A stretch of 64,000 nt of DNA from Opisthocomus hoazin (Eukaryota; Chordata; Aves; Opisthocomiformes; Opisthocomidae): positions 2,604,001 to 2,668,000 of the forward strand of contig NC_134443.1 of NCBI RefSeq assembly GCF_030867145.1, read 5' to 3'. A program made the translations under genes and the position numbers. Below, in pieces: positions 115-63,500 of this stretch (position 1 is the first letter of the stretch; every line of letters starts with the position of its first letter). The notes beneath the pieces are model-generated. The model was not told the origin of the DNA and made no database searches. It saw only the letters and a program-made list of their open reading frames with translations.

Positions 115-2036
<1,922 letters not shown>

Positions 2037-14900: not shown

Positions 14901-17795
14901 TCCTGGGGGTGCTCCGAGCATCCTGGCGCGCTGAAGCCTGGCAGGCTGCGGTCGGGGGCTTGCACCACAGCTGTGGGTTTTACGCTGAGGATGAAGGTGC
15001 GAGTGAGATCACCGCCGTCCCCGGCTCTCGGATGCATCGCGTCATTTCCCAGCTTTAATAGGCGGAAGCAAAACTTGAAGGGAAATTAAAAAAATGCGGC
15101 TGGTAAATAAGACTTTTCCCTTAACAATGACTGGTGCCCGAGCAGATGACATTAGCAGGATTCCTGCGGAAGTCGCTGGAGGGAACATTGTTTGGTGTTT
15201 TTGCTGCGGGAGCCGAGAAGGTGGATGAAGGAAACCCAAAAAATCCGTTCCCCCATGGCACCGGCAGCCGTGGGGTTGCCACCGCTTCCCGAGGTGCCGC
15301 GTGCCGGCCGAGAGGTAGGTGGGACGAGCTGCCCGTCCCGCGGGAGTCCTCTGAGGAATGGAGGGGCTTTTCTACCGAACAGGCTGTTCTCGCTCTCCGG
15401 CGGGTTTTTCTACTCTAAATAAAGCTTTCCTGCCCTTCCCTGCCCTTTTGTAAACAGCGGCTGCCTGGGCTGGCTGCTGCCAGCCGGGGTGTGCGCTCTG
15501 CCACAGAGACTGGGAAATAGTAACATAATGCTTTGGACACTTTGAAATAAAGAAAAAGATGCACTTTTAAACAGTAGTTCTTCAAAAAATCAAATAAAAT
15601 AAAGAAAAAATAAATAGAAGGACGTCCCTGGTTTTCGCAGTTGGTGCCTGCAGTGTGCCGGGGCGGCAGCTCGCTCTTCCTCTGGGCATCGTCCCCGCGT
15701 GCGGCTCCCGGGGGCTCTCGGCACGGGTGCAACACGAGGGATTGAAAAGCCGGTGCTGTCCCACTGACGGTTTTAGGCTGAGACGGGCGCTGCAAACCGT
15801 CGTTGTCCTCGCCCTCGGGGTGCTGTGGGAGGTGATGCTGGGTGGCCCAGCCCAGAGTCACGGCTCTGAGGTGCTGGTTTTCCAGGTGTTTTTGGTTTTT
15901 TCCTTCCTTAATGAGACCTGGATCAGCTGCGTGCACCCCTGGGTGCCTTCCAGGGTTCTGAGCCACAGTGGGTGCTTCCCGTCCCTTCCCCTCCCCTCCA
16001 AAATACCCCTCCGGCCGCAGCACCCACCAAAACGGGGGGTATTAGTTGTACCCAAGCACCCATAGGCACCACAGACTTGTTATCCAGGGCATCACCGAGC
16101 AGCTGGGAAAACTGGGAGCATCCTCGGAGCAAGGAGAGGAGCTGCTCATCACGCGTCCTGCGGCTGCTCCGCAGTGTGCTTTACTGCCCCGTGAGCAAAA
16201 GGAGGAGAGAAGGGGCTGCAATACGGCTCGGCTTAATTCTGAAACTTTAAAATACTGTTTGTCCCTGTTTCACGGTAATTTTTGATGAGTGCTATACAGG
16301 ATGCCATAAATCGTAATCTGATGGAAATCCGAGACCTCAGTTGCTTACCCAGGAATCAGGAATTTTATTGGTTTTACGCCATCTCTGATTGCTATTGAGC
16401 ATCCTCTCCCTCCCCCCAGCGCTTCCAGCCTTCCTCCTCCTCCTCCTCCTCCTCCTCCTCCTCCAAGCCAAGCGGAGAAACCCAGCAGGAAAAAAGCAAA
16501 GGTTATTTCCCCCCCAGCCCCGCTGCCTTGGAAGGGGCAAAACGGGATCGCGGAGCTGCTGGAGCTGCTCCGGCCACCCAGGCTGGCCACGCAGGGTCCG
16601 GCCGTGGGGCCGTGGCGTGGTGGCTGTAGATGGCGGTGACACTGTGCCGGCTGGCCCCGTCCCACCGCGCGCTTGGCGGCTGCCCAGGGCTTTGCACTTT
16701 TTCCGGAGCACTTGTGTGCTTATTAGCTGGTAAACCACTGAAACGAGCTTTCCGGGCAGTTTGTGTTTGATACCGTCTACGAGCAGCCGCGAGATTCGCT
16801 TTCGAGATCATAAATGAATCAAAAAAAATCCGCTAAAAACCCTCCCCAAGAGGCCAGAAAATATCTGAAGGGAATTTTCCTGGGGCTGGTGCTCAAATCC
16901 TATCAGAAAAGATTAGGCTGAAAAAATCCCTCTGGTTTGTGCAAAGCTCCTGCGAGTTTGCAAATTGTTCCTGGGCGAATTTGCAGTGGGTTTGCAAGGT
17001 GCAGCTGGCAAGGGGCCGTGCCCACCCGGCTGCCCTCCTGCAGACTCGCACCATTTTCCCTTTTCTCTTGGTTTTTAACTCCTCTGCAGATAGTGGCTTT
17101 GGCAGAGCGGGGCGGGGGCGGTTCAGTGCCTCGCCGGAGTGGATCTGTCTGTAGGAGAAAGCAAGAACTGGCGTTATTAAACCTCTGTTTGCGCTTGAGG
17201 AGGTGTGGGGCAAAAAAAAAGGGAACGTTGAGGTTTTTTAGCTCCCTTGGGTGAGACCGAGCATGCGAGGCTGGGGACCCGTGCCAGTGGCGGCAGAACG
17301 CGGTCCCTCTGACTCGGAAAATGAAAGGTTTTGGGTCTAACCCAGCCTTGTGCCTGATTTCGAGGTGTTTTGAAGCAGCCGGGCTGCTTCTGAGCTGCCC
17401 CTGCCGTGCAGAGGGCTGGGGTTCAGGCTGGGGAGCTGCGGTGCTCCCCCAGAGCGGGTGCTGGGGGGACACCCAGTGTTCCCTGCTCGTGGGGCCAGCA
17501 GCTGGACCCGAGTGCGAGCCGACACCTGGATGAGATTTACCCTCGACTTTTGGGCAACCTGAGCGGTCACCAGCGCTTTGGGGGATGCTCCAGGCAGGAG
17601 CCTGAGGGGTGCAGCAGCAGCGTTTGCACCCCAGCACCAGCCAAAAGTAAATTTTCTCCCCAGGCTGCTGGGTTTTTTCCCCCCTCGTGAAACTGCAGAG
17701 GAAATCAGGTGTTGTGTTTTGACCAGAACAGCGTTGCGACGCTATAAATAGATTTCTTTCACGCCAGGGGTTGAGGAAGTGGTTTTACCTGCCGG
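12000..17795. other. intergenic, no recognisable gene
   Basis: Between the first exon of the C1orf54-like gene and the last coding exon of the V-J-C1 receptor. It holds a (CCT)n microsatellite at about 16431-16464, an A-rich stretch with several AATAAA hexamers at about 15540-15615, and a minus-strand AATAAA at about 16360 that could end the receptor's 3' UTR. Open frames up to 248 codons show no domain I recognise and no paired splice sites in phase. Confidence 0.55.
16431..16464. repeat. (CCT)n microsatellite
   Basis: Eleven or so perfect CCT/TCC triplets in the gene-poor stretch left of the receptor pair. Confidence 0.9.
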
Positions 17796-17802
17796 GTGTG
17801 CC

Positions 17803-19156
17803 TCACGGGTGGGCATTTGGGCAGCTGGGGGAGGCGAGGAGAGAGCCAGGGCGAGGGGGCTGCAAGGGGAGGCCGGAGCAGGGCTCAGCTCCAGCCAGGC
17901 GCCGTCGGCAGAGCAGGATGGTCAGCTGGAGCAGGAGAAGGAGGGAGACGCCGAGCAGCCCCAGCGCCAGCGGCCAGGAAGGGCATCCTTCTGCGGAGGG
18001 GGGAGAGGAGAGTGAACAGAGGGGGGAGAATGGGGCTTTGGTGGCTCTGAGAACCGAGCGTCCCTGAAATGGGGGGGTCAGGGCTGCGCAAGGGGGAGAT
18101 GTGCTGGTTTGAAGCCTTTCAGCGCAGAGGGATCCCAGCGAGGAGACGGAGGTATCGAGGGATTTGCAGAATGTGTCTTAACGAGGAAGAACTGGGATGC
18201 AGGGGGTGGGTGGAGGGCAGGATCTGGGGGGGATGCACTAATTACCCTCCCCGGATCCTTTACTGATGGCGACGCTGAGGGTCCTGGCCGTGCCGCTCTC
18301 CAGGGCCGTGCACTCCGCAGCCCCGTCCCAGCGCTCAGCCGAGACCCAGGCAATGCTCCAGGCGCTGAGGACGCCGTGCTCGTCCACGGCTGCCGCCGTC
18401 ACCGGTGTCACCTCCCCGCCGGGCTGCCACTGCACAGCGTCCCAGCCTGCGGGCAGGTCGTGGAGGTGGCAGAGCAAGGGGAGGCTGCTCGTGGGCTGCC
18501 CGGGTTCCTCTGTGTTGAGGGGCACCAGGATGGAGAGCTGGGGCTCGGTGGCATCTAAAGAGGGAAAACGGGTGCTGGGGGTGGCACAAACCTCCCCGGG
18601 GACGTCCCCGGCCGTGGGGCGAGCTGCCGGGCACTCACTGGTGACGATGAGCGTGGTCCCGTTCCCAAATGAGGGGTAGAGGTTGGCGGAGCTGCAGTAA
18701 TAAACCCCAGAGTCCTCCCTCTGCGCGGGGCTGATGGTGAGGGAAAAATGCCCCGGGGGTTCCCTTGTGCCCCAGTATTTTCCCACCAGAGAGGTGTAAT
18801 TTGGGCTCCTGCAAACCCAGTACAAACCGCCGTCCGGCTTCTCCTTGTACCAGTTCACATGCGAGCTGTGGTCCGGGGTGCGACAGCTCAGCTTTGCCGT
18901 CTCTCCCGGGAGCACCCAGAGCTGCCCCGGGCTTTGCTGCACCCGCATCCCCTCTGCCGAGGCACCTCCTGCACGGGGGGAGCAGCTCTGAGCTGGATTT
19001 TCTGCACTTCAGGCTTTGTGATATATTGCATTAAAAGTGTTTTGGGGCAAAAAAACCCAAAACAGATCAGCAAATCTGACCCCGGCCGGGGTATTTGTGG
19101 AGCGGGCACGTACCTGGCAGGAGGAGCAGGAGGGTCCCCAGGAGCCCGTAGGACAT
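17803..19156 (-). CDS. immunoglobulin-superfamily receptor, V-J plus C1 plus transmembrane
   Basis: Four coding exons sum to 852 bases, 283 residues, all junctions in phase 1. Exon 1 (19114-19156) is a leader, MSYGLLGTLLLLLPG. Exon 2 (18639-18968) is a complete V-type Ig domain with the first cysteine in TAKLSC, the tryptophan in HVNWYKEKP and the second cysteine in EDSGVYYC, followed without a break by a J-like strand, FGNGTTLIVT. V and J are joined in the germline exon and no recombination signal is seen. Exon 3 (18264-18554) is a C1-type domain: cysteine in LPLLCHL, tryptophan in AVQWQPGG, and the WSIAWVSAERWDGAAEC strand typical of antigen-receptor constant domains. Exon 4 (17803-17990) is a leucine-rich membrane segment, then CRRRLAGAE and a short tail without tyrosine. 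The membrane segment has no charged residue. V-J-C1 architecture is known from antigen receptors, tapasin-like and SIRP-like proteins. The exact family is not recognised; ligand and function are unknown. Confidence 0.85.
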
Positions 19157-20040
19157 GCTGGCCTTAAACCTTCTGCCAGGGAGATTTTCTCGCCGTCCAG
19201 GGAGATCTTCTCTGCCAGGCTGGGGGGGCTCTGGCGGACAAGACCCCCGGGGGGGTTGGCAGCCGCACGCCCTGGGGATGCTCAGAGGAGGCACCCCAGG
19301 AGCTGGCCCTGCCCCAGCTGGGACGGGGGGGGCCCACGTGTCATCATCCCCCACCGTGGGGCTTTCCAGCCTCCGTGGGTGACGGAAATCGGGGGGAAAT
19401 GGCGTGTTTGCCACCCGTCCCCCGATAACAGGACCCTTTGGGGCTGGGTTCAGTGCAGGGTGATGCCGGGGGGGTTGAGGGTCCCAGGGACCAGCGCATC
19501 CTCCAGCCCGGGGGTTTGTTTGGGCTTTGGGTGTCCAGGGGGGCACGAGAGGGGGAAATTGGGGAGGGAACAGTGGAGGGGGTTTGGGGAGGGAACCGTG
19601 CGCTCTGGTCTCACTTGCAAACTGGGATTTTAATTCCGGCTCTGCCGTGCAGTGGGGGTCTCATCCCCCTGCCCATCTCTCCGAGGAGCCCTGGGCTTCG
19701 TCGTTGTCCCCTGTCTCTTTTTCTGCTCTCCAAGGCAAAAGTTCTGCCTGCGCTTGGTCTTTGGGCTGGATTTCCCCAAGCTCCCGCATGGGAGCCGCAG
19801 GAATTGTCCCCGCGGCTCGGCATCCACCTACAGCAGCAGTATATATAATTAATTCCATATATATTCTATATTCTTCTGCCTCTGTGCAGCAGCTGGAGGC
19901 TGTGCTCGAGCTGGAGATAGCTGCGGTCAGCCTCGCTGCTGTATTTTGTCGCTTCGACGGGGTTTATTGACACCAACCCCTTCCCCCCCGCCCGGCGATG
20001 GGGGTTTCTGATGTTTTTCGGCGCCTGCCCTGTCCTGTCC
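19157..20040. other. spacer between the two divergent Ig receptors
   Basis: Upstream of both receptors if they are transcribed away from each other. It is GC rich to about 19600, then mixed, with a short TATATA/ATATAT run at about 19840-19875. I searched the plus strand for a leader exon ending in phase 1 and for a V-type exon with a YxC motif for the right-hand gene and found neither. This is the natural place for a shared or bidirectional promoter. Confidence 0.45.
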
Positions 20041-20605
20041 CCCTCCAGCATCCAACAACCACCTCACCCCCCATCCCCTCCAGCCCCCTCCATCTGTCTC
20101 CGTCCCCTCCATACCCCTCCGTCCCCCATCCCCTCCTTCTCCTTCATCCCCCCCATCCCCTCCATTTCTCTCCTTCCCTTCCATCCACCTCCATCCCCTC
20201 CATCCCCTCCTTCTCCTCCATCCCCTCCATTCCTCTCTATCCTCTCCATCCTTTCCATCCCCTCCATTCCTCTCCTTCCCCTCCATCCCTCTCCATCCCC
20301 TTCATTCCTCTTCATTCCTCTCCATCCCCTCCATCCTCTCCATCCTCTCCATCTCCTCCATCCTCTGCAGCCCCCTCCATTCCTCTCCAACCCCTCCATC
20401 CCCTCCTTCTCCTCCATCCCCTCCATTCCTCTTCTTCCCCTCCATCCCTCTCCATCCCCTTCATTCCTCTTCATTCCTCTCCATCCCCGCCTTCTCCTCC
20501 ATCCCCTCCATCTCCTCCATCCCCTGCAGCCCCCTCCATTCCTCTCCATCCCCTCCATTCCTCTCCTTCTCCTCCATCCTCTCCATCCCCTCCGCCGCGG
20601 TCCGT
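20040..20605. repeat. polypyrimidine minisatellite upstream of the ITIM receptor exon
   Basis: About 560 bases of almost pure C and T on the plus strand, made of CCCCTCCAT, TCCTCTCCAT and CCTTCTCCTCC words. A longer block recurs after roughly 195 bases (CCCCTCCTTCTCCTCCA near 20204 and again near 20397). It runs into the pyrimidine tract of the acceptor at 20646. Such strand-asymmetric sequence can form triplex DNA and is hard to assemble, so copy number in this window may be wrong. Confidence 0.95.
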
Positions 20606-20646
20606 GCCCCCGCCAGACCCCGCTGCAGCCCCTCTCCCTGTTGCAG

Positions 20647-21925
20647 ACAGCTGGAGGGCCGGCAGCTGGGTGTGGGTGCTGGCTCCCCGAGGGGCTGCCC
20701 AGACCCCTCCCCACCCGCTCTGTGCCGTGGGTGCCACCGACGGCCCTGTCCTCCTCTCCTGGCCAGGGGGGCCCGGGCAGGTGCTGGGGCTGGGGGGCGG
20801 CGTGGGGCCGCTCCTCCGCCCCGTGAGCGTGACCGGGGGGGTCTGCGAGGTTCGCTTCAACGGCTCGGGACCCCCCGTCCGCAGGAGCACAGAGCTGCCA
20901 GGGGCCGCAGGTGAGTCGGGGGGACCCCCCCGGGCTGGGTCACCCCTGGGGACACCGGGGCAGTGGGGATGGCTTGGCTGCGGGGCGGGGGGACGTGGGG
21001 GAGCCTTGGGGGTCATGGGGCGGGGGGGAGGATGGTGGGGGTCTGGAGGGGTCTGGGGGGGTGGTGAGGGGACAGGGGGATGGGGGTCCAGCCAGCTCCT
21101 CTCCCCCAGGCAGCTGCATCGCCCCCGGCACCTGGGCCCTGGCTGGGGCTGGGGGGCTGCTGCTGCTCAGCCTCTGCCTCCGCACCCGCTGCCTGCGCAC
21201 CCGCTGCCGGCGCCGCCCCGTGCCGAGGGGTGAGGAGTGGGGTGGCACCAGCCGTGTCCCCCACTGTCCCCCCGCTGTCCCCCGTGTCTTGGGCCCCTCC
21301 CACTGACCTCTCCGTCCCCAGCCCCCTCCATCCCTCATCCCCCTCTGTCCCTCTCTATCCCCTCCATCCCCCTCACCCCTCATCCCCCGCCATCCCCCTC
21401 CATCCCCAATCCCCCTCGATCTCCTCCATCCCCCTTCATCATCCCTCACCCCCCTCCATCCAAAATCCCCCTCTGTCCCTCTCTATCCCCTCCATCCCCC
21501 TTCATCATCCCTCATCCCCCTCCATCCCTCTTCCCTTATCCCCCTTCATCCCCCTCCGCCCCCAATCCCCCTCCACCCCCTCCATCCCCTCCGTCCCTCA
21601 TCCCCCCCATCCCCCTCCGTCCCCTCCATCCCCCCCATCATCCCTCACCCCCTCCGTCCCCTCCAGGCCAGCAGCCGGGGGCCCCGATGCCGCCTGCGTC
21701 GTGGGAGGAGGAGGTGAGGCCCTGGGGTCCCTGGGGCCTCGGGCTGGCAGGGCAGCAGCGTCCTGGGCTCGGGGACCGCAGGGGACGGGGGACCCTCGCA
21801 GACCCCCGCTGCTGCCGGAGGCGGGATTTGGGGTGCGGGGGCGGCTCTGACGGCACCCTCGCCCGCAGGGAGGGGTGACCTACGCCCAGCTGTGCTTCGC
21901 CGCCCCGGCAAGGCCCACGCTGTGA
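20647..21925 (+). CDS. Ig-domain receptor with transmembrane segment and ITIM tail (5' end not found)
   Basis: Four exons in consistent phase give the C-terminal 162 residues. Exon 20647-20910 is one Ig-like domain, with a cysteine in PHPLCAVG, a tryptophan in VLLSWPGG, a second cysteine in GGVCEVRF and an N-glycosylation site NGS. Its opening WVWVLAP...PLC resembles the start of the C1 domain of the neighbouring minus-strand receptor. Exon 21110-21229 holds a short stalk, a membrane segment (WALAGAGGLLLLSLCL) and an arginine-rich inner flank. Exon 21667-21713 is a linker ending SWEEE. Exon 21869-21925 reads GGVTYAQLCF and stops; VTYAQL fits the ITIM consensus (I/V/L)xYxx(L/V), a docking site for SH2-domain phosphatases. 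A poly(A) signal follows 118 bases later. The leader and any V domain are missing, hidden or lost near the pyrimidine repeat. It could be an inhibitory receptor or a decaying gene; the open frame and clean splice sites favour a working gene. Confidence 0.7.
21310..21662. repeat. second polypyrimidine minisatellite, in the ITIM receptor intron
   Basis: About 350 bases of CCCCCTCCAT and CCCTTCATCATCCCTCA units on the plus strand, closely related in sequence style to the repeat at 20040-20605. It forms most of the intron between the transmembrane exon and the linker exon, up to that exon's acceptor. Confidence 0.95.
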
Positions 21926-22042: not shown

Positions 22043-22048
22043 AATAAA
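22043..22048 (+). terminator. polyadenylation signal AATAAA of the ITIM receptor
   Basis: AATAAA 118 bases after the TGA of the receptor and 276 bases before the APH1A start codon. The receptor therefore ends just in front of the APH1A promoter. Confidence 0.75.
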
Positions 22049-22258: not shown

Positions 22259-22323
22259 GCCCCGCGCGGCCCCGCCCCGCGGCCCCGCCCCGCGGCCCCG
22301 CCCCGCGGCCCCGCCCCGCCGCC
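22259..22323 (+). promoter_or_regulatory. APH1A: APH1A promoter, tandem GC boxes
   Basis: Four tandem copies of a 14-base unit GCGGCCCCGCCCCG, each holding one Sp1-type GC box, run directly into the GCCGCCATGG start context of APH1A. No TATA box is seen. The transcription start is inferred within or just upstream of this array. Confidence 0.7.
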
Positions 22324-25300
22324 ATGGGGGCCGCCGTCTTCTTCGGCTGCGCCGGGATCGCCTTCGGGCCGGCGCTCGCCCTGGTGCTGCTGACGGTGGC
22401 GGCCGAGCCGCTGCGGGTCATCGTGCTGGTGGCGGGGTGAGCGCGGGGGGTGGCCGTGGGGGGGCTGGGGGGGACGTGCCTCTGGGGGGGGGGTGCTGTG
22501 GTGGGGGACTGAGAGCATGGGGCGGGCAGGGGGGGATGTCAGAGGGCATTGAGGGGGGACGAGGGGGCAGTGGGGGCTCAGGGCATTGAGGGGGGTCAAA
22601 GGGGCAGTTGGGGAGTCAGAGAGCATTGAGGGGGGCTGTGGGGGGCTCAGAGAGCATTGAGGTGGCTGTGGGAGCAGGGGGGGTCAGAGGACATTGAGGG
22701 TGGCTGTGGGGGGGTCAGAGCATTGAGGGGGGCTGAGGGAGCAGGGGGGGGTCAGAGCATTGAGGGGGGCTGTGGGGGGCTCAGAGAGCATTGAGGTGGC
22801 TGTGGGAGCGGGGGGGGTCAGAGGGCATTGAGGGTGACTGTGGGGGGGTCAGAGCATTGAGGGGGGCTGAGGGAGCAGGGGGGGGTCAGAGCATTGAGGG
22901 GGGCTGTGGGGGGCTCAGAGCATTGAGGTGGCTGTGGGAGCAGGGGGGGTCAGAGGACATTGAGGGTGGCTGTGGGGGGGTCAGAGCATTGAGGGGGGCT
23001 GTGGGAGCAGGGGGGGGTCAGAGCATTGAGGGGGGCAATTCTGGGGCAGTTCTGGGGCAGTTGGGCGGTCTGGGCAGGCCGCATAGGGCTGAAGGGGCAG
23101 CTGAGGGGGGTGGTGGGGCAGGCAGGATGGAGGTGGGCGAGGGGGCAGCTGGCGAAGCGAGGGGGGCAGTTCTGGGGCGGCTGAGGGGGCCGGGGGGGGT
23201 TGGCAGCTCCGAGAGGGGGGGCCTGAGGGAGTCTGGGGTTCAGGCGGCGCTGGGGGGGTTGGGGGGCAGCTGCGGGCGTCCGAGCGGGGCAGCCTGGGGG
23301 GCAGCTCCTGGGGCAGCCGCAGGGGCCGGGGGCGGGAGGCAGCGCCCGGGGGCCATTCTGGGGGGTCCGAGGGGGGGCTTGGGGCCATCGCCCACGCGGG
23401 TGGGAGCAGGCTGTGAGTTTGCGGGGGGTGGGCAGGGCTGTCCCCGCAGCGGGGTCCCCCGGCTTTGGGGTCTCCCAGCACCCGGCTCCGCTGGCGCGAA
23501 CGCGGTGTCCTGGCCGAGGGGAAGCACCTGGGGGCTGTGGCCGAGCCCCCGCAGGAGCTTGGGGACCCCCCCAGCGATGCCAAACAACCGCGGCCGAGCC
23601 CCTGCCGGAGCTCGGAGACCCCCCCAGCGATGCCGGGCAGCTGGCTCGGGGCAGCGCCGGCACCGCGGGAGCCGTTCCTGGCTCCGACCCCGCAGCCCCC
23701 GCTGCACCGGGGGCCGTGCGGGGGGGCAGAAGGGCAGGCGGGGGCTGCGCAGCGCCCGGGCGGGCGGCAGCCGGGAGCCGCCACGCCGTCCGTCTGTCCG
23801 TCCATCGGGTCTCCGGCTCGCTGCGCCCAGCCGGTCCCCAGGGTGGGGGGACCAGTGCGGGGGTCTCAAAGAGCGAGGGGAGCGGCTCCGAGCCGGCCGT
23901 CGCCCACCGCGCGCGGACCCTCGCGGGGTGAAGCACCGGGCGTCCCTCGCCGCGGGGCAGGGCAGCAGCTTCCCGAGAAAAGAAAGAAGGATTTCGGCTT
24001 CCGAATCGGATCGGTTATCGGCCGCGCGCTTCCCTCGCGTGCCCAACTCGGCCCGCGCCGCCACCGAGAGCTTCCCCCGCTGCGCCGCGGCCCGGGCACG
24101 CCAAGCGAGCAGCTCGGAGCACGGGCGCGTGAGCTGGGCGTTCGTCTCTCCGCAGGGCGTTCTTCTGGCTGGTCTCGCTGCTCCTGGCCTCGCTGGTCTG
24201 GTTCGTCTCGGTGCACCTCAGCGACCGGGAGGACGCGCGGCTGCAGCGCGGGCTCCTCGTCTTCGGGGCCGCCGTCGCCGTCCTGCTGCAGGAGGCGTTC
24301 AGATTCGCCTACTTCAAGCTGCTGAAGTGAGAGCCCGGCCGAGCGCGGCACCCGGGGCCGGGTGATTCGTTCTGGTCGCTGCCCGACCTCGGCTTTTTCT
24401 CCGGGGAACCCCGCAAAGCATCTTCCTCGTTAGAGAGCTGTTCCTCCTCGCCCCGGGCTCGTTTATCGCCGTCCCTGCCCCTCTCCTGGTGCCGAGGCCC
24501 CTCTTCCGAGCCGGCCGCTGACGCTTTCTCCCCTCCCGAGCAGGAAAGCGGACGAAGGGCTGGCGACGATCAGCGACGACGGCCGCTCCCCCATCTCCCT
24601 CCGGCAGATGGCTTACGGTGAGCGCGGCCCCGGCGGGGCTGGGGCGCCCGCTGAGCGCCCCGTGCTCCTCCCGGCAGCCGGCATTGCCGGGCCAACGCGG
24701 CCGCCCCGGTTCTGCCTGCCTTCCCCGAGCCCGGGGCGCGTGGTGGAGGCAGCGCGGCCGCGGCGGCTCTTGGCTGACTCCCGTCTCCCCGCGCAGTCTC
24801 GGGCCTGTCCTTCGGCATCATCAGCGGCGTGTTTTCCGTCATCAACATCCTGGCGGACTCCATCGGGCCGGGCGTCGTCGGGATCCACGGGGACTCACCG
24901 TACTACTTCATCACGTCCGGTGGGGCCGCGGGCTCGTGCCCGGGGTGCTGCGGTGGCACCGGTTGGAGCCGGGCCCAGCCCTTCGCCCAGGCGAGGAGGA
25001 GGAGGAGGAGGAGGAGGGTGGTGACGCGGGTCCGTCTCGCGCTCTTCCCGCAGCCTTCCTCACCATGGCCCTCGTCTTGCTCCACACCTTCTGGGGCGTG
25101 ATCTTCTTCGACGCCTGTGAAAACCGCCGGTACTGGTGCCTGGGGCTGGTGGTCGGCAGTCACCTCCTCACCTCGGGGCTGGTGAGTCCGGTGGTGGGAT
25201 GCCCGCCGCCGCCTCCCCCCGAAATCCCTGCCGCCGAGCCGCGCGCGGGGGAAGGGGGTTTGTGGGGTCTGCGTCCGGACGGAGGATTCGCTGCCAAGCT

Positions 25301-35215: not shown

Positions 35216-37027
35216 GTGAGGGGACGGGGGGGGCCGGGCGCGGGCCAGCGCGGAGCCGTTCGCTGCGCCGGGGGTCGCGGGGCGTTGAGGGGGGGGGTTG
35301 CCGGTAGCGGTGCGGAGCTGCGGCCGGGCCCCGCGGCGCGGGGTGCGGGGGCCGCCGGCAGTCCCCTGGGGGAGCCGCGGCTGCGGGCAGGCGGCGGGGC
35401 CGAGCCCTTCTCCCGCTCCCCGGGGGAGGCTCCGCGCCCGCTGGGCCCCTGCGCGTCTTCACCTTCACCTCCCGACGTGCGCGGTCGCTCCCGGCCGCGC
35501 CCGGGGCCGGGGGGCCGGGGCCGGCGGAGCCGATCCCCGCTCTCCCGGTGAGACGCCGCCAGACCCGCCACGCTGCCCCGGGCGCCTTCCTAGGCTGCGG
35601 GAGCTCGGGTTGAGCCCCGAGTGCGGGGCCGCTGCCTCCAGTGGCGCGGAGCCGCCGGTCTGTCCCCGCGCTCATTAACGATTTCCGCTTCTCTCCGGTC
35701 CCCGCGCTGTCCCGCAGCGTCGGAGCTCGCAGGTGAGCCCCGGTGGCAGCGTTCTGCCGGGCCGTGTCCGGCGCTGAACCCCCCCGAGAGAAACCCGCGG
35801 TGCGAGGCGGAAGGCGGCGGAGGTTCCGGGGCTTTCGGCGGCTGGGGGGCAGGAGCGCTCTCCAGAGCGGGCGCGGGCCCCCCCGTCGCTGCCTGCAGCC
35901 CGCGGGTTCGCTGCTGCTGTTCGCAGACCCCAAACTGAGCAGCGCTTCGTTAGAAACGATGCCCGGGCTCGGAATTCGCAGTTTCAGGGTCGATAACCGT
36001 GTTTGAGGGGGTTTCTGTCAGACCCGCGCCGGTGCCGGGGCTCTGCGGGCTGTTTGGCGTGGGGAGGAGATGCCGGGGCCAAGCACGTTTCCCTGAGCAG
36101 ATTTGCTCCGGTTTCCCGAGCGAGGAGACTCGGTTTCCAAATCAGAGCCTGGGCGCGTAATTCGGCGTTGCTGCACCTGCAGCCTGGGATGGACAGTGTG
36201 AGCACCGCTAACGAGGAACGGGGAGAAATACTTGCTTGGAAAAATCGGTGGTTCCGGCTCCGCCAGCGGTTGGAGCAGCGAGCAGAGCGGCGGCCGGGCG
36301 CGTGCGGAGCCGTTACGCGTCGGTGAAGCGGAGCGTGCTCAGGGCAGTTTGTGACCCTCCCGGGGAAGAGGACAGTTAAGGGCGAGCGGGCGCCTGCGAG
36401 GTTTCTCTGCGTCCGCTCGAAGCGTCCCGTAGCTCGTGCTGCGTGAGGCAGGCTGGCAGCCGCTCTGCTGATATCGCCGCGTGCAGGCTCGTGGGCCTGG
36501 AGGCGCGGTAGGAGCTGGCCAAGCAGCCGTGGAAAGGACGGGGAGAAGCTCAGAGAGAAGCCGAGGTGTGAGGGGACGCCCCGAGACCAAACGTTCCCGT
36601 CCCGTTTGTGGGGATCGGGGCGTGGAAGCGGAGCCTGAGCTGGAAGGACCGGAACGGTGCTCGGTGCTCGCCGCGTGTCCTCCCGCGGGGCACGTGCGAG
36701 GTTCAGGGCTTTCCCCGCAGCGCGGTCTGCGAGCGCGGTTTGCCGTCGTTAAGGCCTGATGCCGCGTGGTGTCTGCTGGGGTCGCGGGCTCCTCGCTGCT
36801 GAGCCCCTTCCCCTGCGTGTGGCTCGTCGAATTTGAGCTGGCCTTGTAAAAGCAAGGGAGCGAAAGTCGTCTCCGAGGGCTTTCCCCGCTCCTGAGCTTC
36901 CTCACGAGGGACAAAGGCGCAGCGCCAGAGCGAGGACGGTCTGATGCTTCATTTTCCAGTCTGTGGTTTGCTCCTCTGTCTGCTTTACAGGTACGAGCGA
37001 GACCACTCGGTTCAGCTCCTGGCAAAG

Positions 37028-54900: not shown

Positions 54901-57900
54901 GCTCTCCGTGTCCGTAGCAGGTGCCCTCTGGACATCTGTGGGCGTAGCTGGTAAAAATTCCCCGACAGCTGCAACTGTTGGAGACCAATTTAAGCCATTA
55001 CAGCTTAAAAAAAAGGAAATTTATACCTGATGATTCTTAGAAAATATGAAGAAGTGGCCTCAAAATAATTAAACAAGAGGTTGCAGGGAGTCAGTAGCCA
55101 AGCAGGGTGGTGCCGGAGCTGCAGAGACCGGGCCAGCCGCGTGCTCTGGAGCGGTGGGGTTCTGTTCCCTTGCAGAAACCTGTGCTGGTTTGTGTTGGAC
55201 CGCTTCCCACCAGCGATGCCCGTCTTGCTGGCTGTGCCGTTCCTCTTGCTGCGCGGGTATCGTAGAAGTAGCCCAGGGTGGACAGCTTTTTGTGCCCTTC
55301 CTAAGCCAAAGTCGGTGTCGGGGCTTGACGTTACCAAACGCTCGGGTTTTGGGAAGCTCTGGAAATGAGTTGTAAGTCGAAGCCTTCCTCTCCAGTCCCC
55401 GGTTCTGACCGCTGGACTGGCCCTTGGACGCGCCATTGATGGAAAAGCTGAGCCCCCCCCGGCCCCAGGCACTGAAATGCTGTTACCAACACGCGGCCGA
55501 TGTGGCCACTGCTGCTTGATGATGAATCTGAATTTTCTCTTTGTCTTTAGCTGCCTTTCCTCATCGACTGAACCTTTTCTACTTGGCCAATGACGTCATA
55601 CAGAACTGCAAGAGAAAAAACGCAATTGTCTTTCGTGATACGTTTGCAGAAGTGCTCCCCGAAGCTGCTTCGTTAGTGAAGTAAGTAACGGTGTGTTGGA
55701 AGGTTGAATGTCTCAAAAAATGTGAGTTTTTCTTCTAACATCTCAAACGGTGTAGAAACACCAGCAAAATTTCAAGGATTTTGTTTGAACAGCCGTGTGG
55801 ATTTGAGCTTCCCTACGAGGAGCGTGCTGGGACGGGCATAGAGCTGGCTTTTAATTTGCGTGGCGGTCTCATTTGAGTGAAATAATCAGGTGAAGCGGTG
55901 TGAGGGGCAAGTCTTGCACCGATACATGCGTGCCCTGTAGTTCTGCTCTCCCCTTGCGTGCAGGCACCGGTGGCTTGTGCTGCTGCCGGGGGGGACGGTG
56001 GCAGACTCGGGGGAGCGCTCGCAGCACGGAGGGGTGTGACAAGACGAGGAGGAGGAGGAGGAGGTCTTTGTGGTTTCCAGGGATCTGCCTGTGGTCGAGC
56101 ACCATGAGAACAAGCCTCGCAGATACTGGTGTAATCCCTGCCTGGCTTCTGCGAGCTTCGCTCTGGCCCCTGTGCTGCTGTACCCCTCTGCTAAAACGTT
56201 ATTCCAAGGTGACGCTTTCTCAAAGGTGGTTTTGTGCTCCGCTGGAAACTGGAGACTTTAATTTATTAGAGTAACGTGGGACGAAAGGATCTCAGGCTGG
56301 CACGTGTCTCAGGCTGGCACGTGTCCCGGCGTTACCGCAGGGTGCCTTGCTGCCCGCCGCTCTGGTGTCCGAACCGTCCTCGAAGCAGGTGGTCTGTGAG
56401 GGGCAGGACATCGTTACCGCACGGAGCAGCTCCTGAGCAGTGAGGTGATGTCACTGCTCCGCGTGTCTTTGGAACAGAGTTCAAAGCAGCAGATGGCTGA
56501 ACAGAGCACGAGGCAGGGAAAAGGTTAAACTGGACCGCTCATTAGCTTATATTTAAAAGTAGGTTGCCAGAAGAGAAAGTGGAAAATACTGTGAATAGAT
56601 GCCAGCACTGAGGAGGAGGAAGGAGGAAGAATTCTGGGAGTATCAGCTACCAGAGCAAAAGATAGAAGGAAAAGCTACGGCGAGAATTGCGTGTTACCGC
56701 TCCTTTGACAGCCCCAACAGGCTTTCCCACGCCCAGTCTGGTCCAGATACTGGTACAGGAGTGATGAAATGGATTAACAGTTCGGTGAACTTGCCGCTTG
56801 CATCTTTCGGTGTTTCTGTACCACGGGGGTGTGACTTGGTGGGCCTTTATGGACCCCGATGGGAGATTTTTTTTGTGTCTCTTCCACGTGCACCTCGCTG
56901 GCCCTGACGGGTGATGTCATTCTGTCTGTCCCTCCGCAAAGCTGTGCATGGCCGGGGACAGCAGTGTCACTCCACGGCAGAACCTTGGTGACCGACCTGC
57001 TTCCAGTCGGTTTAAAAAGCGGTCAGATGGGCCAGAAAACGCGTTGCTCTTTCCTGAGGCCCTGAGCTAGAACACAGAACGCAGCAGGGCTCAGAGTCGA
57101 GTCGGGCAGCTGCTCAAGTGGTCTTTACAAGGTCCCTCCCAACCCAGGCGGTTCCGTGAAGCCCCCTTCCTTCCATCGCACCCTTCCTTTGCTCCGGGCT
57201 TCGAGCCCTGCCGCGGTGCCAGCAGCCGCCCGGGTCCCACAGGGAGCGGTGGTGGCAGCTCCGCTCTCCAGTGAGAGTTTATTATTCTGAGCTCGAGTCC
57301 TCTGGGGCAGTCGCTTCTGGTTGTTGGCAGGGTTCGGGCTCGCTGCTGCCCTCGGAGTGCGAAATGCGGGGGGCATGGACTTCAGGTTGCTCGGCAGGAA
57401 GCGCTCTTCGTTTGGGTGACGAGCAGGGTGACCACTGGCCTGGTCGCGCGTTTCTCCAGGACAGCTCTTGGGATCGCGCCCTGGTGTTGGCTGCGGGTTT
57501 AGGGAGAACGCGCATTGAGAGCGGTTGCTTGCAGATGTTCTGTTTGTCAGTTTTTTCCCTTGAAACAGAAGCACCTGGACAAGATGCGTGATGTGACACC
57601 AGGCCGTCGCCTTTTCTTTCTTTCTTTCTTTGGAGGCGCTTGCAGGTGACGTTGCCCAACTCCCAAGGCCGATGCTGCTGAGCACAGAGGGGACGTGTGA
57701 TCAGAGATGAGCGGAGAGCTCGTTGGCTTGCTGAAGTTCAGCACTGCTGATGGCCTTACGCAGTCACGGAAGTCTCTGAAGCAGTTACTCTTCTCTGTGA
57801 AGAGAGCAATGTTTTATTGTGTCCCTGCCCTGGAATAATCACTTTTTCCCAGAGCATCCATATGGAAAGCTGCTTTGGAGGAGTAACAGAAAATTTTTTC

Positions 57901-60900: not shown

Positions 60901-63500
60901 ACTTTTAGTCGGGGCCTAGTTCCTTGGGTTCTTTATACTTTTTCTTTATTCCAACAGCATCCACGAACCCGAAAGCAGCTTTGAAGTCCAAGATTGTTGC
61001 CGAATTCAGGGTAAGTCTGCAAGTGGAAATACTCTGTTGCGCTAACCTCCATCCTTGGGCTGTAGCGTACGCCCACCGGCGGTGTGAGGTTGATGGGAAG
61101 CTCGAGTGTTCAGCGTCTGTTTGCTCCTTGGCAGGTAATGCCTGCTAGATGTTTCAGGTGCGGGTTTTGTTAGGGCTGCCACCCCTTCTGTGCGCTGTTA
61201 GGGACAACAAGGCAACTGGAAAGCCTTTGGAGAGCGGTGAGGAGGTTCCCTGTGGAGATGCAGGTTTTCCTTTGGGGTAACCTCGTACAGGAGAGCAGTT
61301 TGCCGTAAAGTCCACGGCTCCTACGCCTCGAGGGGCTGGCTGTTATGGACGGCGCTGACCGGGGCGTGCGGTCAGATCAGCCTCTTGGAGGAGCTTAGGT
61401 TAGCCGAGGAGTTGGTGGCAAGAAGTCTGTCTAAATCTGGAGTACTGTGTCCAGTTCTGGGCTCCCCAGTTCAAGAAAGATGAAGAGCTACTGGAGAGAG
61501 TCCAGCGCAGGGCTACGAGGATGGTGAGGGGACTGGAGCATCTCCCCTACGAGGAGAGGTTGAGGGAACTGGGCTTGTTCAGCCTGAAGAAGAGAAGGCT
61601 GCAAGGGGACCTTATAAATGCCTACAAATATCTGAAGGGTGGGTGTCAGGAGGATGGGGCCAAGCTCTTTTCAGTGGTGCCCAGTGACAGGACAAGGGGC
61701 AATGGGCACAAACTGAAGCACAGGAAGTTCCGTCTGAACATGAGGAAGAACTTCTTCCCTCTGAGGGTGACGGAGCCCTGGAACAGGCTGCCCAGGGAGG
61801 TTGTGGAGTCTCCTTCTCTGGAGATATTCAAGACCCGCCTGGACAAGGTCCTGTGCAGCCTGCTGTAGGTGACCCTGCTTCGGCAGGGGGGTTGGACTAG
61901 ATGACCCACAGAGGTCCCTGCCAACCCCTACTATTCTGTGATTCTGTGATTCTGTAAATGAGGTCCCCCGAAGGAGCATGGTATGTTAATGAAATGCACG
62001 GGCACTAACAGAGTCAAGAAAAAAAAATAATAAAATAAAAAAGGTCTGTCCCTACTCTTAACCATCACAACCAAGAGATTTGTAGAATTACAGCCCCTTC
62101 CTGGGCCCGAGCCTGCTGATGTGTTTGACTTGAGGTTACAGACCCGGAGATTCGCAGGCTTCGTCTCTGCGTTAGCTCGCGTTTGGAAGCGGGCGTGAAC
62201 GGGAGCGCTGTTTGTCGCTGAAGCGGGGCTGCGCCGTTAGCTCTGTGCAGCGGGGCTTCTCTTCCGCGGAATGTGATGAGGGTGCTTTTCGTGTTTGATT
62301 TTTTCCAGCCCCAGTCTCTCATCGATGAGCTGCTGTTATACAAGCGCTCGGAAGACCAGATAGAACTGAAAGAGAAGCAGCTTTCCACGATGAGAGTGGA
62401 TGTGTGCAGCACTGAAACACTGAAATGCTTGAAAGGTAAAGGCAGCGTATCGCGAACAAACCCCGACGGAGGCGCGAATACCTGTCCTGACAGTTGTAGG
62501 AGCTCCTCGCTGCTGCTGAGCCTTAGACCAGAAACCGCACTGCGCTGTAAAATGCCAGAATTTCCGAGTGCAGTTAAGAACCACCAAGCAGGAGCTGAAA
62601 ACCTTCGTTAATTGAACCTGTTTGTAGAAATCCGCAGACAGAGCTGAGACAAAGCGGGAGTGATGAAGATGTGTTTTGTACTGTTCAGACGTGCCCTCGT
62701 ATATCATTCACACACGCATGGTTCTTAATTCAGAATCCCTTACGCAGTTTGGGATGGAAGTTAATTGTAGCCACTCAGGGATGCCTTAGCTTGAGAACGC
62801 CGACTGTGAGTCCGGTAGCAAGCGGCGTGTGTTAGGGGTGAATGAGCTGAGTTACGCTGAGCCGTATGAAGAGGAAATTGAATTTTAAAAGTGCAGATAG
62901 CTCTAGCTGTGCTTAGTAATCTGTGACTGCGGTCTTTGAAAACGGTCGCAGCCGTGGTAGCTCGCAGATGTTGTGAACCCCGATGATGTTAGGAATCTTC
63001 GGTAACGAAGGAAAAATAAACCTCAAGATTTTTGCCTCTTCCGAAATGAAAGTGCAATCTCTGGGTAACTGAAAGAGTAAAATTTTACACTTCTGTGTCT
63101 CAAACTTACTTATCGCTGATAACTAGTTGGAAAACAATAGGTGCTGCCAGCGGCTTGGCCCCTTTGTTTCAGGGGGTGTCGGTGGATGAACAGGGTGGGG
63201 GGGGGGGGCTGCACGGCATGGTGTGGCGTCCGTTGCCTGGACGTCCTTCAGCATGCGCTTTGGAGAGCTGAGCTCTGGTTTAGCAGGTGGCAGCTTAATT
63301 TCCGTGGTGTTAATCTCCTTGCAGACAAAACGGGAGGAAAGAAGTTCTCCAAGGAGTTTGAGGAAGCAAGTTCAAAGCTGGAAGAGTTTGTTAACGGCTT
63401 AGACAAGCAAGTGAAAAATGGCCCCTCCCTCACCGAAGCCCTGGAGAACGCCGGTATATTTTATGAAGCGCAGTATAAGGAAGTCAAGGTGGTAGCAAAT
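48904..63500 (+). CDS. RPRD2: RPRD2, first seven coding exons (partial, 3' part off window)
   Basis: Regulation of nuclear pre-mRNA domain-containing protein 2, which binds the phosphorylated C-terminal domain of RNA polymerase II and associates with CTD phosphatase RPAP2. Exons: 48904-49129, 55551-55680, 58225-58325, 59564-59641, 60958-61010, 62309-62435 and 63325-63500. They sum to 891 bases, 297 codons, all in phase, then a GTAAGT donor. After a Gly/Ser/Ala-rich start ([15 protein letters not shown], with a (TCC)8 tract), the CID/RPR domain begins at [14 protein letters not shown] and includes [16 protein letters not shown]-type helices (here [14 protein letters not shown]), [17 protein letters not shown] and [15 protein letters not shown] coiled region follows ([32 protein letters not shown]). 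Human RPRD2 is about 1461 residues, so roughly four fifths lies to the right. Intron 1 is 6.4 kb. Confidence 0.97.
49130..55550 (+). other. RPRD2 intron 1
   Basis: The first kilobase is GC rich, with a short GGGGTCNGCAGGCTGGGGG repeat at about 49250-49340. The rest is ordinary sequence with a poly(A) run at about 51795-51812. No nested gene with domain or splice support is seen on either strand; open frames up to 225 codons have no recognisable content. Confidence 0.65.
55681..60957 (+). other. RPRD2 introns 2 to 4
   Basis: Apart from exons 3 and 4 (58225-58325 and 59564-59641) this is non-coding. It holds a duplicated 18-base word CTCAGGCTGGCACGTGTC at about 56291-56326, a (TTTC)n run at about 57614-57631, a poly(A) run at about 60703-60716 and no gene that I can support. 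Confidence 0.6.
61430..61957 (+). mobile_element. CR1 LINE, 5'-truncated copy, 3' end complete
   Basis: The last part of a CR1 non-LTR retrotransposon in the sense of RPRD2, inside intron 5. It keeps the characteristic CCAGTTCTGGGCTCCCCAGT stretch, the end of the reverse-transcriptase ORF2 (an open frame at 61521-61868 with [20 protein letters not shown], ending [13 protein letters not shown]), the GGTTGGACTAGATGACC region of the 3' UTR and the terminal ATTCTGTG repeats at about 61932-61955. It is 5'-truncated, as nearly all copies are. The C-terminal frame is still open over 115 codons, which suggests a fairly late insertion. Confidence 0.95.

Follow-up and report, generated by a model that had tools for sequence, protein, structure and literature searches.

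A germline-joined V-J-C1 membrane protein gene in the genome of Opisthocomus hoazin and its plus-strand neighbor

What is encoded by the two divergent genes at positions 17803–21925 of a 64,000-nucleotide stretch of the Opisthocomus hoazin genome (contig NC_134443.1, positions 2,604,001 to 2,668,000; hereafter the window), and are the two genes related? An initial annotation had read them as a pair of unrecognized immunoglobulin (Ig) receptors. The minus-strand gene was described as a germline-joined variable (V) and joining (J) exon followed by a C1-type constant domain and a membrane anchor, and the plus-strand gene as its possible sister, an Ig-domain receptor with an immunoreceptor tyrosine-based inhibitory motif (ITIM). 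Our analysis confirms that the minus-strand gene is a real, intact, and complete gene for a germline-joined V-J-C1 membrane protein. Its plus-strand neighbor is best regarded as a short membrane-protein gene of its own, which carries a single ITIM-like motif and has no shown tie to the V-J-C1 gene. Among living genes, germline V-J plus C1 genes away from the rearranging loci serve best as models of the gene believed to have been split by the RAG transposon.

Results

Structure of the minus-strand gene

By analysis of splice sites, phase, and translation, the minus-strand gene was found to consist of four exons that run from 19156 to 17803 and join into a stop-free frame of 852 nt (283 amino acids). 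Every intron is of the GT-AG type, all three internal exon borders are in phase 1, and the stop codon at 17803 forms the left edge of the region under study. The features of this gene are as follows.

19114..19156, minus strand: exon 1, start codon and signal peptide MSYGLLGTLLLLLPG, ending in phase 1 (from splice sites, phase, and translation)
18639..18968, minus strand: exon 2, V domain with the germline-joined J motif FGNGTTLIV, phase 1-1 (V-set, E 2.1e-15)
18555..18638, minus strand: intron between V and C1, 84 nt, in frame and stop-free
18264..18554, minus strand: exon 3, divergent C1-type Ig domain, phase 1-1 (C1 model built from the same genome; nearest to C-lambda)
17803..17990, minus strand: exon 4, stalk with Cys224, transmembrane segment, tail, and stop

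The V exon covers all 109 positions of the Pfam V-set profile and is closed by FGNGTTLIV, which places the V domain and the J strand in a single germline exon. This motif fits the J consensus FGxGTx(L/V)xV that is given in a passage of PMC11599192. The top matches of the V exon in the PDB are antibody chains (among the best 60 of 9616 sequences at E ≤ 0.01).

In the C1 exon, the cysteines and the tryptophan are spaced as in C1 domains. A hidden Markov model (HMM) was built from C1 exons of the same genome; 48 hits gave 24 stretches, and the removal of L037 (stops), L007 (wrong strand), and L043 (which looked like an I-set domain) left 21. This HMM gives the C1 exon 11.0 bits, a score that none of 2000 shuffles reached (1851 were scored, the best at 6.1 bits). 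The phases, the HMM score, and the match to C-lambda place a C1 domain with phase-1 borders in the exon that follows V. From these results, we conclude that the initial annotation of a germline-joined V-J exon, a C1 domain, and a membrane anchor on the minus strand was correct.

The encoded protein has an additional cysteine in its V domain (position 67) and three N-glycosylation sequons (positions 71, 117, and 125). Its transmembrane segment, LALGLLGVSLLLLLQLTILLC, is strongly hydrophobic and contains no charged residue, so it lacks the charged transmembrane residue of a T-cell receptor (TCR) chain. The cytoplasmic tail contains neither a tyrosine nor a signaling motif.

Relations of the V and C1 exons

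To place the V exon, it was compared by phmmer with 49 V exons from its own genome, drawn from 150 listed V-set hits and given family labels, VPREB3 included, by eye. The top match is a VPREB3-like exon (35.4 bits, and at 28% also the highest identity), followed by Ig-lambda V exons at 21.0–32.7 bits with a TCR-gamma V exon (23.1) among them. Further down are TCR-beta V (17.5 and 18.8), SIRP (16.9), a CD8-like exon (16.6), IgH V (15.0 and 9.9), four TCR-alpha/delta-like V exons (9.1–18.7), and unlabeled exons (up to 16.7), while TIM-, CD300-, BTN-, and TAPBPL-like exons score at most 9.8 bits. In this ranking the V exon is closer to Ig and TCR V domains than to other V-set families; in a tree of V exons, support for the same division is weak (62/93) and the V exon has a long branch. 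Membership in the SIRP, TAPBPL, or butyrophilin families is not borne out by the V scores, SIRP reaching 16.9, TAPBPL 4.1, and butyrophilins 3.3–7.0 bits against 35.4 for the best match.

When the C1 exon was compared with 70 V and C1 exons of its own genome, the two top matches were C-lambda exons (E 0.006 and 0.02). Thus by score, V and C1 both appear nearest, though distantly, to Ig-lambda/VPREB3-like and C-lambda exons of their own genome.

No further copy of the minus-strand gene was found among the 137 of 305 genome candidates that were scored. After the gene itself, the best genome matches come from exons of the Ig-lambda contig, C13, with E 9.4e-5 at best. A search confined to viral contigs found no relatives.

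The gene is neither in an Ig-lambda locus nor a rearranging V gene: the window is on contig C30, the Ig-lambda-like exons are on C13, and V and J are joined in the germline. At up to 3 mismatches, no recombination signal was found within 17803–21925, and no signal with a 23-base spacer was found in the whole window. Signals with a 12-base spacer match at 15630 and 16619, outside the V-J-C1 gene (0.54 expected in the window), and none flanks the V exon.

Three other loci came to light in these searches. The Ig-lambda locus, labeled by eye (L046, L047, L001–L003, and L026; C13, 18.70–18.86 Mb), has eight C1 hits and two copies of the VPREB3-like exon; chicken has one C-lambda. A further V-set exon (L059; C1, 133156276–133156596) ends in a J-like sequence, GDGTKLRIRR. 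It is well separated from the TCR-beta-like hits, which lie around 155 Mb on that contig, and possibly belongs to another joined-VJ gene. A big tandem repeat family that is open in several frames (L021 and L022; C16, 2.67–3.23 Mb) gives matches to the C1 and membrane portion of the query with E no better than 0.02, probably owing to composition.

Several results weigh against reading the minus-strand gene as one for an invariant surface glycoprotein of antigen-receptor architecture. The C1 exon is very divergent and matches no Pfam family at E ≤ 10; in the PDB it has just two matches, both to IgG1 constant regions (E 0.29 and 0.39). The C1 reading frame ranks first among the 783 window frames of at least 50 amino acids, but with an E of 0.043. 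A tree was made of 39 exons, 38 of the 49 comparison exons and the window V. In this tree, the window V falls on the antigen-receptor side with the weak support given above, is unplaced inside it, and has a long branch (1.82); measured along the tree, TCR-beta V exons lie closest to it, not VPREB3. AlphaFold2 prediction of V plus C1 has a predicted local distance difference test (pLDDT) score of 36.8, which gives no usable fold model. On the minus strand, no AATAAA or ATTAAA was found from the stop at 17803 down to 16370, and the dimer proposed under Discussion depends on a single stalk cysteine.

The missing nearby polyadenylation signal and the divergent C1 would also be expected if the gene were a pseudogene or noncoding relic. 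We judge this to be very unlikely, as the frame is open over its full length, canonical splice sites are kept across four exons, and the GC content by codon position is coding-like (0.83 at third and 0.55 at second positions).

A light-chain-like V and C1 would also suit a membrane-anchored surrogate light chain, a V-J-C1 protein whose partner in developing lymphocytes would be an Ig heavy or TCR-like chain. In mammals, VpreB and lambda-5 act in this way. The best V matches (the VPREB3-like exon and Ig-lambda V), the nearness of C1 to C-lambda, and the tail without a signaling motif are all consistent with such a role. However, the minus-strand protein has a membrane anchor of its own, its identity to these exons is at most 28%, the tree does not group its V with VPREB3 or Ig-lambda, and the VPREB3 label was itself given by eye. 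Based on these results, a surrogate light chain is an unlikely identity for this protein, if less so than a pseudogene.

The plus-strand neighbor

The plus-strand gene was read from its reading frames only, in which four exons join in phase into 161 residues that end in VTYAQLCFAAPARPTL, with the stop at 21925 forming the right edge of the region under study. Its features are as follows.

20647..20910, plus strand: open exon of the second gene (from the reading frame; Ig identity unsupported)
21110..21229, plus strand: exon with the hydrophobic segment, phase 1-1, best 19-residue mean 1.52
21667..21713, plus strand: short cytoplasmic exon, phase 1-0
21869..21925, plus strand: terminal exon with the ITIM-like VTYAQL and the stop
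22043..22048, plus strand: AATAAA polyadenylation signal, 118 nt past the stop of the second gene

The sequence VTYAQL, in the tail after the membrane segment, fits the ITIM pattern (I/V/L/S)xYxx(L/V). In this respect the gene agrees with the initial annotation of a receptor carrying VTYAQL. The signal peptide and Ig ectodomain of an ITIM receptor were not borne out. A scan of 18000–20646 for a leader exon found two weak ATGs only, at 18266 (within the C1 exon of the minus-strand gene) and at 20011, neither of them signal-peptide-like with a good donor.

An Ig domain in the 20647–20910 exon was not supported by comparisons of several kinds. The exon matches nothing in Pfam at E ≤ 10, and in the PDB only unrelated enzymes at E 0.05 or worse. 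The C1 HMM gives it −2.1 bits, which 836 of 2000 shuffles equal, and phmmer against the 70 V and C1 exons gives E 0.65 or worse. AlphaFold2 without an alignment returned a pLDDT of 41.5, so that the structure predictions suggested for both proteins proved unusable in either case.

The sister relation of this exon and the C1 exon, which were said to begin alike, was rejected. BLASTP against the V-J-C1 gene gives E 5.8, and 593 of 1000 shuffles align equally well. Phase-1 borders are indeed common to both genes, as had been noted; such borders are usual for exons of the Ig superfamily (IgSF). From the profile, PDB, HMM, shuffle, and BLASTP results, we conclude that the sister claim fails and that the Ig domain of the neighbor is unsupported.

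These results bear on the proposal that the two genes are divergent sister Ig receptors that form a joint paired-receptor system with the ITIM gene as its inhibitory member. The head-to-head order, the fit of VTYAQL to the ITIM pattern, the rarity of such an exon chain in simulations (see below), and a cysteine that both proteins carry immediately external to the membrane segment agree with it. In addition, the alignment score of the membrane and tail regions of the two genes is reached by 21 of 1000 shuffles in local and 6 of 1000 in global alignment (that is, it beats 979 and 994), but this may only reflect a hydrophobic stretch at the same place in both. Against the proposal stand the comparisons of the 20647–20910 exon given above and the lack of a convincing leader exon, and paired receptors normally have similar ectodomains. 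With the Ig nature of the neighbor and the sister relation both unsupported, we regard a paired-receptor system as improbable, about as much so as a minus-strand pseudogene.

A different explanation for the plus-strand exons is decay of a former gene, or else a run of open frames that arose by chance in DNA of very high GC content. To gauge this, 3.1-kb regions were simulated on one strand under three models, and a comparable chain occurred in 2, 0, and 0 of 1000 regions. A hydrophobicity threshold of 1.6 had missed the real chain (1 of 200 simulated regions had one) and was lowered to 1.5 to admit it; at 1.5 the real chain was recovered, using a different acceptor for its first exon (20617). 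The window holds about 40 region-strands of this size, which raises the expectation of a chance chain to as much as about 8% window-wide. Because of this rate per 3.1 kb and strand, the threshold relaxed for the real case, and the number of region-strands, chance stays among the explanations of the plus-strand chain.

Decay or chance would also fit the lack of a convincing leader, the 527-nt minisatellite directly upstream with a related one inside, and the absence of any relative in Pfam, the PDB, the same genome, and the viral contigs; in the genome, no other copy was found at E ≤ 1 (all 48 of 48 candidates scored). Moreover, the difference between third- and second-position GC in the first plus-strand exon is matched by 4.6% of local windows. 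On the other side are the four phase-consistent exons with a membrane segment, an ITIM-like motif, and a polyadenylation signal, and the rarity of such a chain in the simulations. We give decay or chance slightly less than an even chance; as a gene, the plus-strand neighbor is perhaps incomplete or decaying. The two minisatellites are related, of the CCCTCCATC type, and occupy 20067–20593 and 21310–21660.

Genomic setting

The window has a GC content of 0.60 and is part of the 6.8-Mb contig C30 in an assembly of 1.48 Gb. On one side of the two genes is an ANP32E exon (166–363, minus strand), read by eye without a Pfam match. On the other is a plus-strand gene from 22324 with an Aph-1 domain (PF06105, E 3.3e-10), followed by a PWI domain near 36980 (E 1.5e-7) and a CID domain near 55568 (E 1.6e-9). 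We take the genes with these three domains to be APH1A, PRPF3, and RPRD2, and the gene order of the window to be that of human 1q21.2, where CA14 presumably lies between ANP32E and APH1A. The V-J-C1 gene thus lies outside the rearranging loci, beside APH1A, in a region that matches human 1q21. Human is not known to carry an Ig gene at this position.

A 13-base CGCGGCCCCGCCC repeat (22265–22323, 4.5 copies) stands immediately upstream of the APH1A start, and a 134-base tandem repeat (22561–23036, 3.6 copies, 93% matches) is in the presumed first intron of APH1A. An open frame at 61419–61853 is presumably the C-terminal part of the reverse transcriptase of a bird CR1 retroelement.

Discussion

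Based on the above results, we consider it probable that the minus-strand gene encodes an invariant, nonrearranging V-J-C1 surface glycoprotein, that it is likely a remnant from before RAG, and that its plus-strand neighbor is a separate membrane-protein gene. The signal peptide, light-chain-like V-J, C1, stalk cysteine, anchor, and silent tail make up an antigen-receptor architecture. Most likely the protein would be a germline-encoded chain that acts at the cell surface in recognition or as a ligand, possibly as a disulfide-linked dimer held by the V and C1 faces and by Cys224 of the stalk. Any signaling would occur only through a partner chain. Charged membrane residues are needed to hold CD3- or DAP12-like adaptors; since the segment has none and the tail has no tyrosine, we do not propose that the protein signals by itself.

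Human chromosome 1 is described in part of PMC10751288 as one of four major regions paralogous to the major histocompatibility complex (MHC), and another passage there links tetrapod VJ-C1 genes to MHC paralogues. The gene may accordingly be what was retained, in the chromosome-1 MHC-paralogous region, of a pre-RAG set of antigen receptors. Finding a V-J-C1 gene in this paralogue is relevant to the question of which MHC-paralogous regions harbored antigen-receptor precursors, and the location of the gene can be compared across vertebrates.

A bolder proposal joins both genes into one innate, unrearranged inhibitory receptor, in which the V-J-C1 chain would bind ligand and pair through stalk cysteines with the ITIM chain; such a two-chain complex would predate or parallel the rearranging receptors and survive in the bird chromosome-1 MHC-paralogous region. 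We find this highly improbable, the least likely of the explanations considered here.

Among known systems, VPREB3 and Ig lambda give the top V and C1 matches in the same genome and share the J motif and the V-J-C1 order with the minus-strand gene. The latter differs in being unrearranged, in having a stalk and a membrane anchor, in lying on another contig, in its low identity, and in not joining them in the tree. SIRP, TAPBPL, and the butyrophilins likewise combine a V domain, one or more C1-type domains, and a membrane anchor, but their V scores are lower, as given above, and the SIRP-like gene of this genome has two C1 exons. NKp30 shares a proline-rich tail with the minus-strand protein but has a charged membrane residue and lacks a C1 domain. 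Judging by the title of Fu et al. (2019, J Immunol), we take PRARP to be the chicken family described there. We consider it roughly as likely as not that the V-J-C1 gene is among those reported by Fu et al. or by Ohta et al. (2019).

Like the window gene, NKp30 has a joined VJ domain and is so named in a passage of PMC11599192. A search of open-license PubMed Central found no paper that combines APH1A, ANP32E, chicken, and immunoglobulin, and passages of the chicken MHC review PMC8813856 contain no word beginning with "rearrang". Passages of PMC10751288, however, already cite nonrearranging VJ-C1 and VJ genes, among them a 2019 paper on two nonrearranging chicken IgSF genes, which makes it doubtful that the V-J-C1 gene is unrecognized, as the initial annotation had it. 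One such gene is PRARP, which is also named in part of PMC11599192. It is a germline-joined VJ IgSF gene, as in the window, but is placed in PMC10751288 among the MHC VJ genes, whereas the window gene is in the chromosome-1 paralogue. The other is UrIg of sharks (Flajnik et al. 2023, as cited in a passage of PMC10751288), which is nonrearranging and has the same VJ-C1 layout. It lies in the MHC class III region of sharks and is titled a nonrearranging antibody, whereas the window gene is membrane-anchored; the two are set apart here by description. The V-J-C1 gene is of this already published kind, at most one more member beside PRARP and UrIg, and may itself have been published. Because this kind is in the literature, what the O. 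hoazin gene adds is one more place and one more sequence rather than a new principle.

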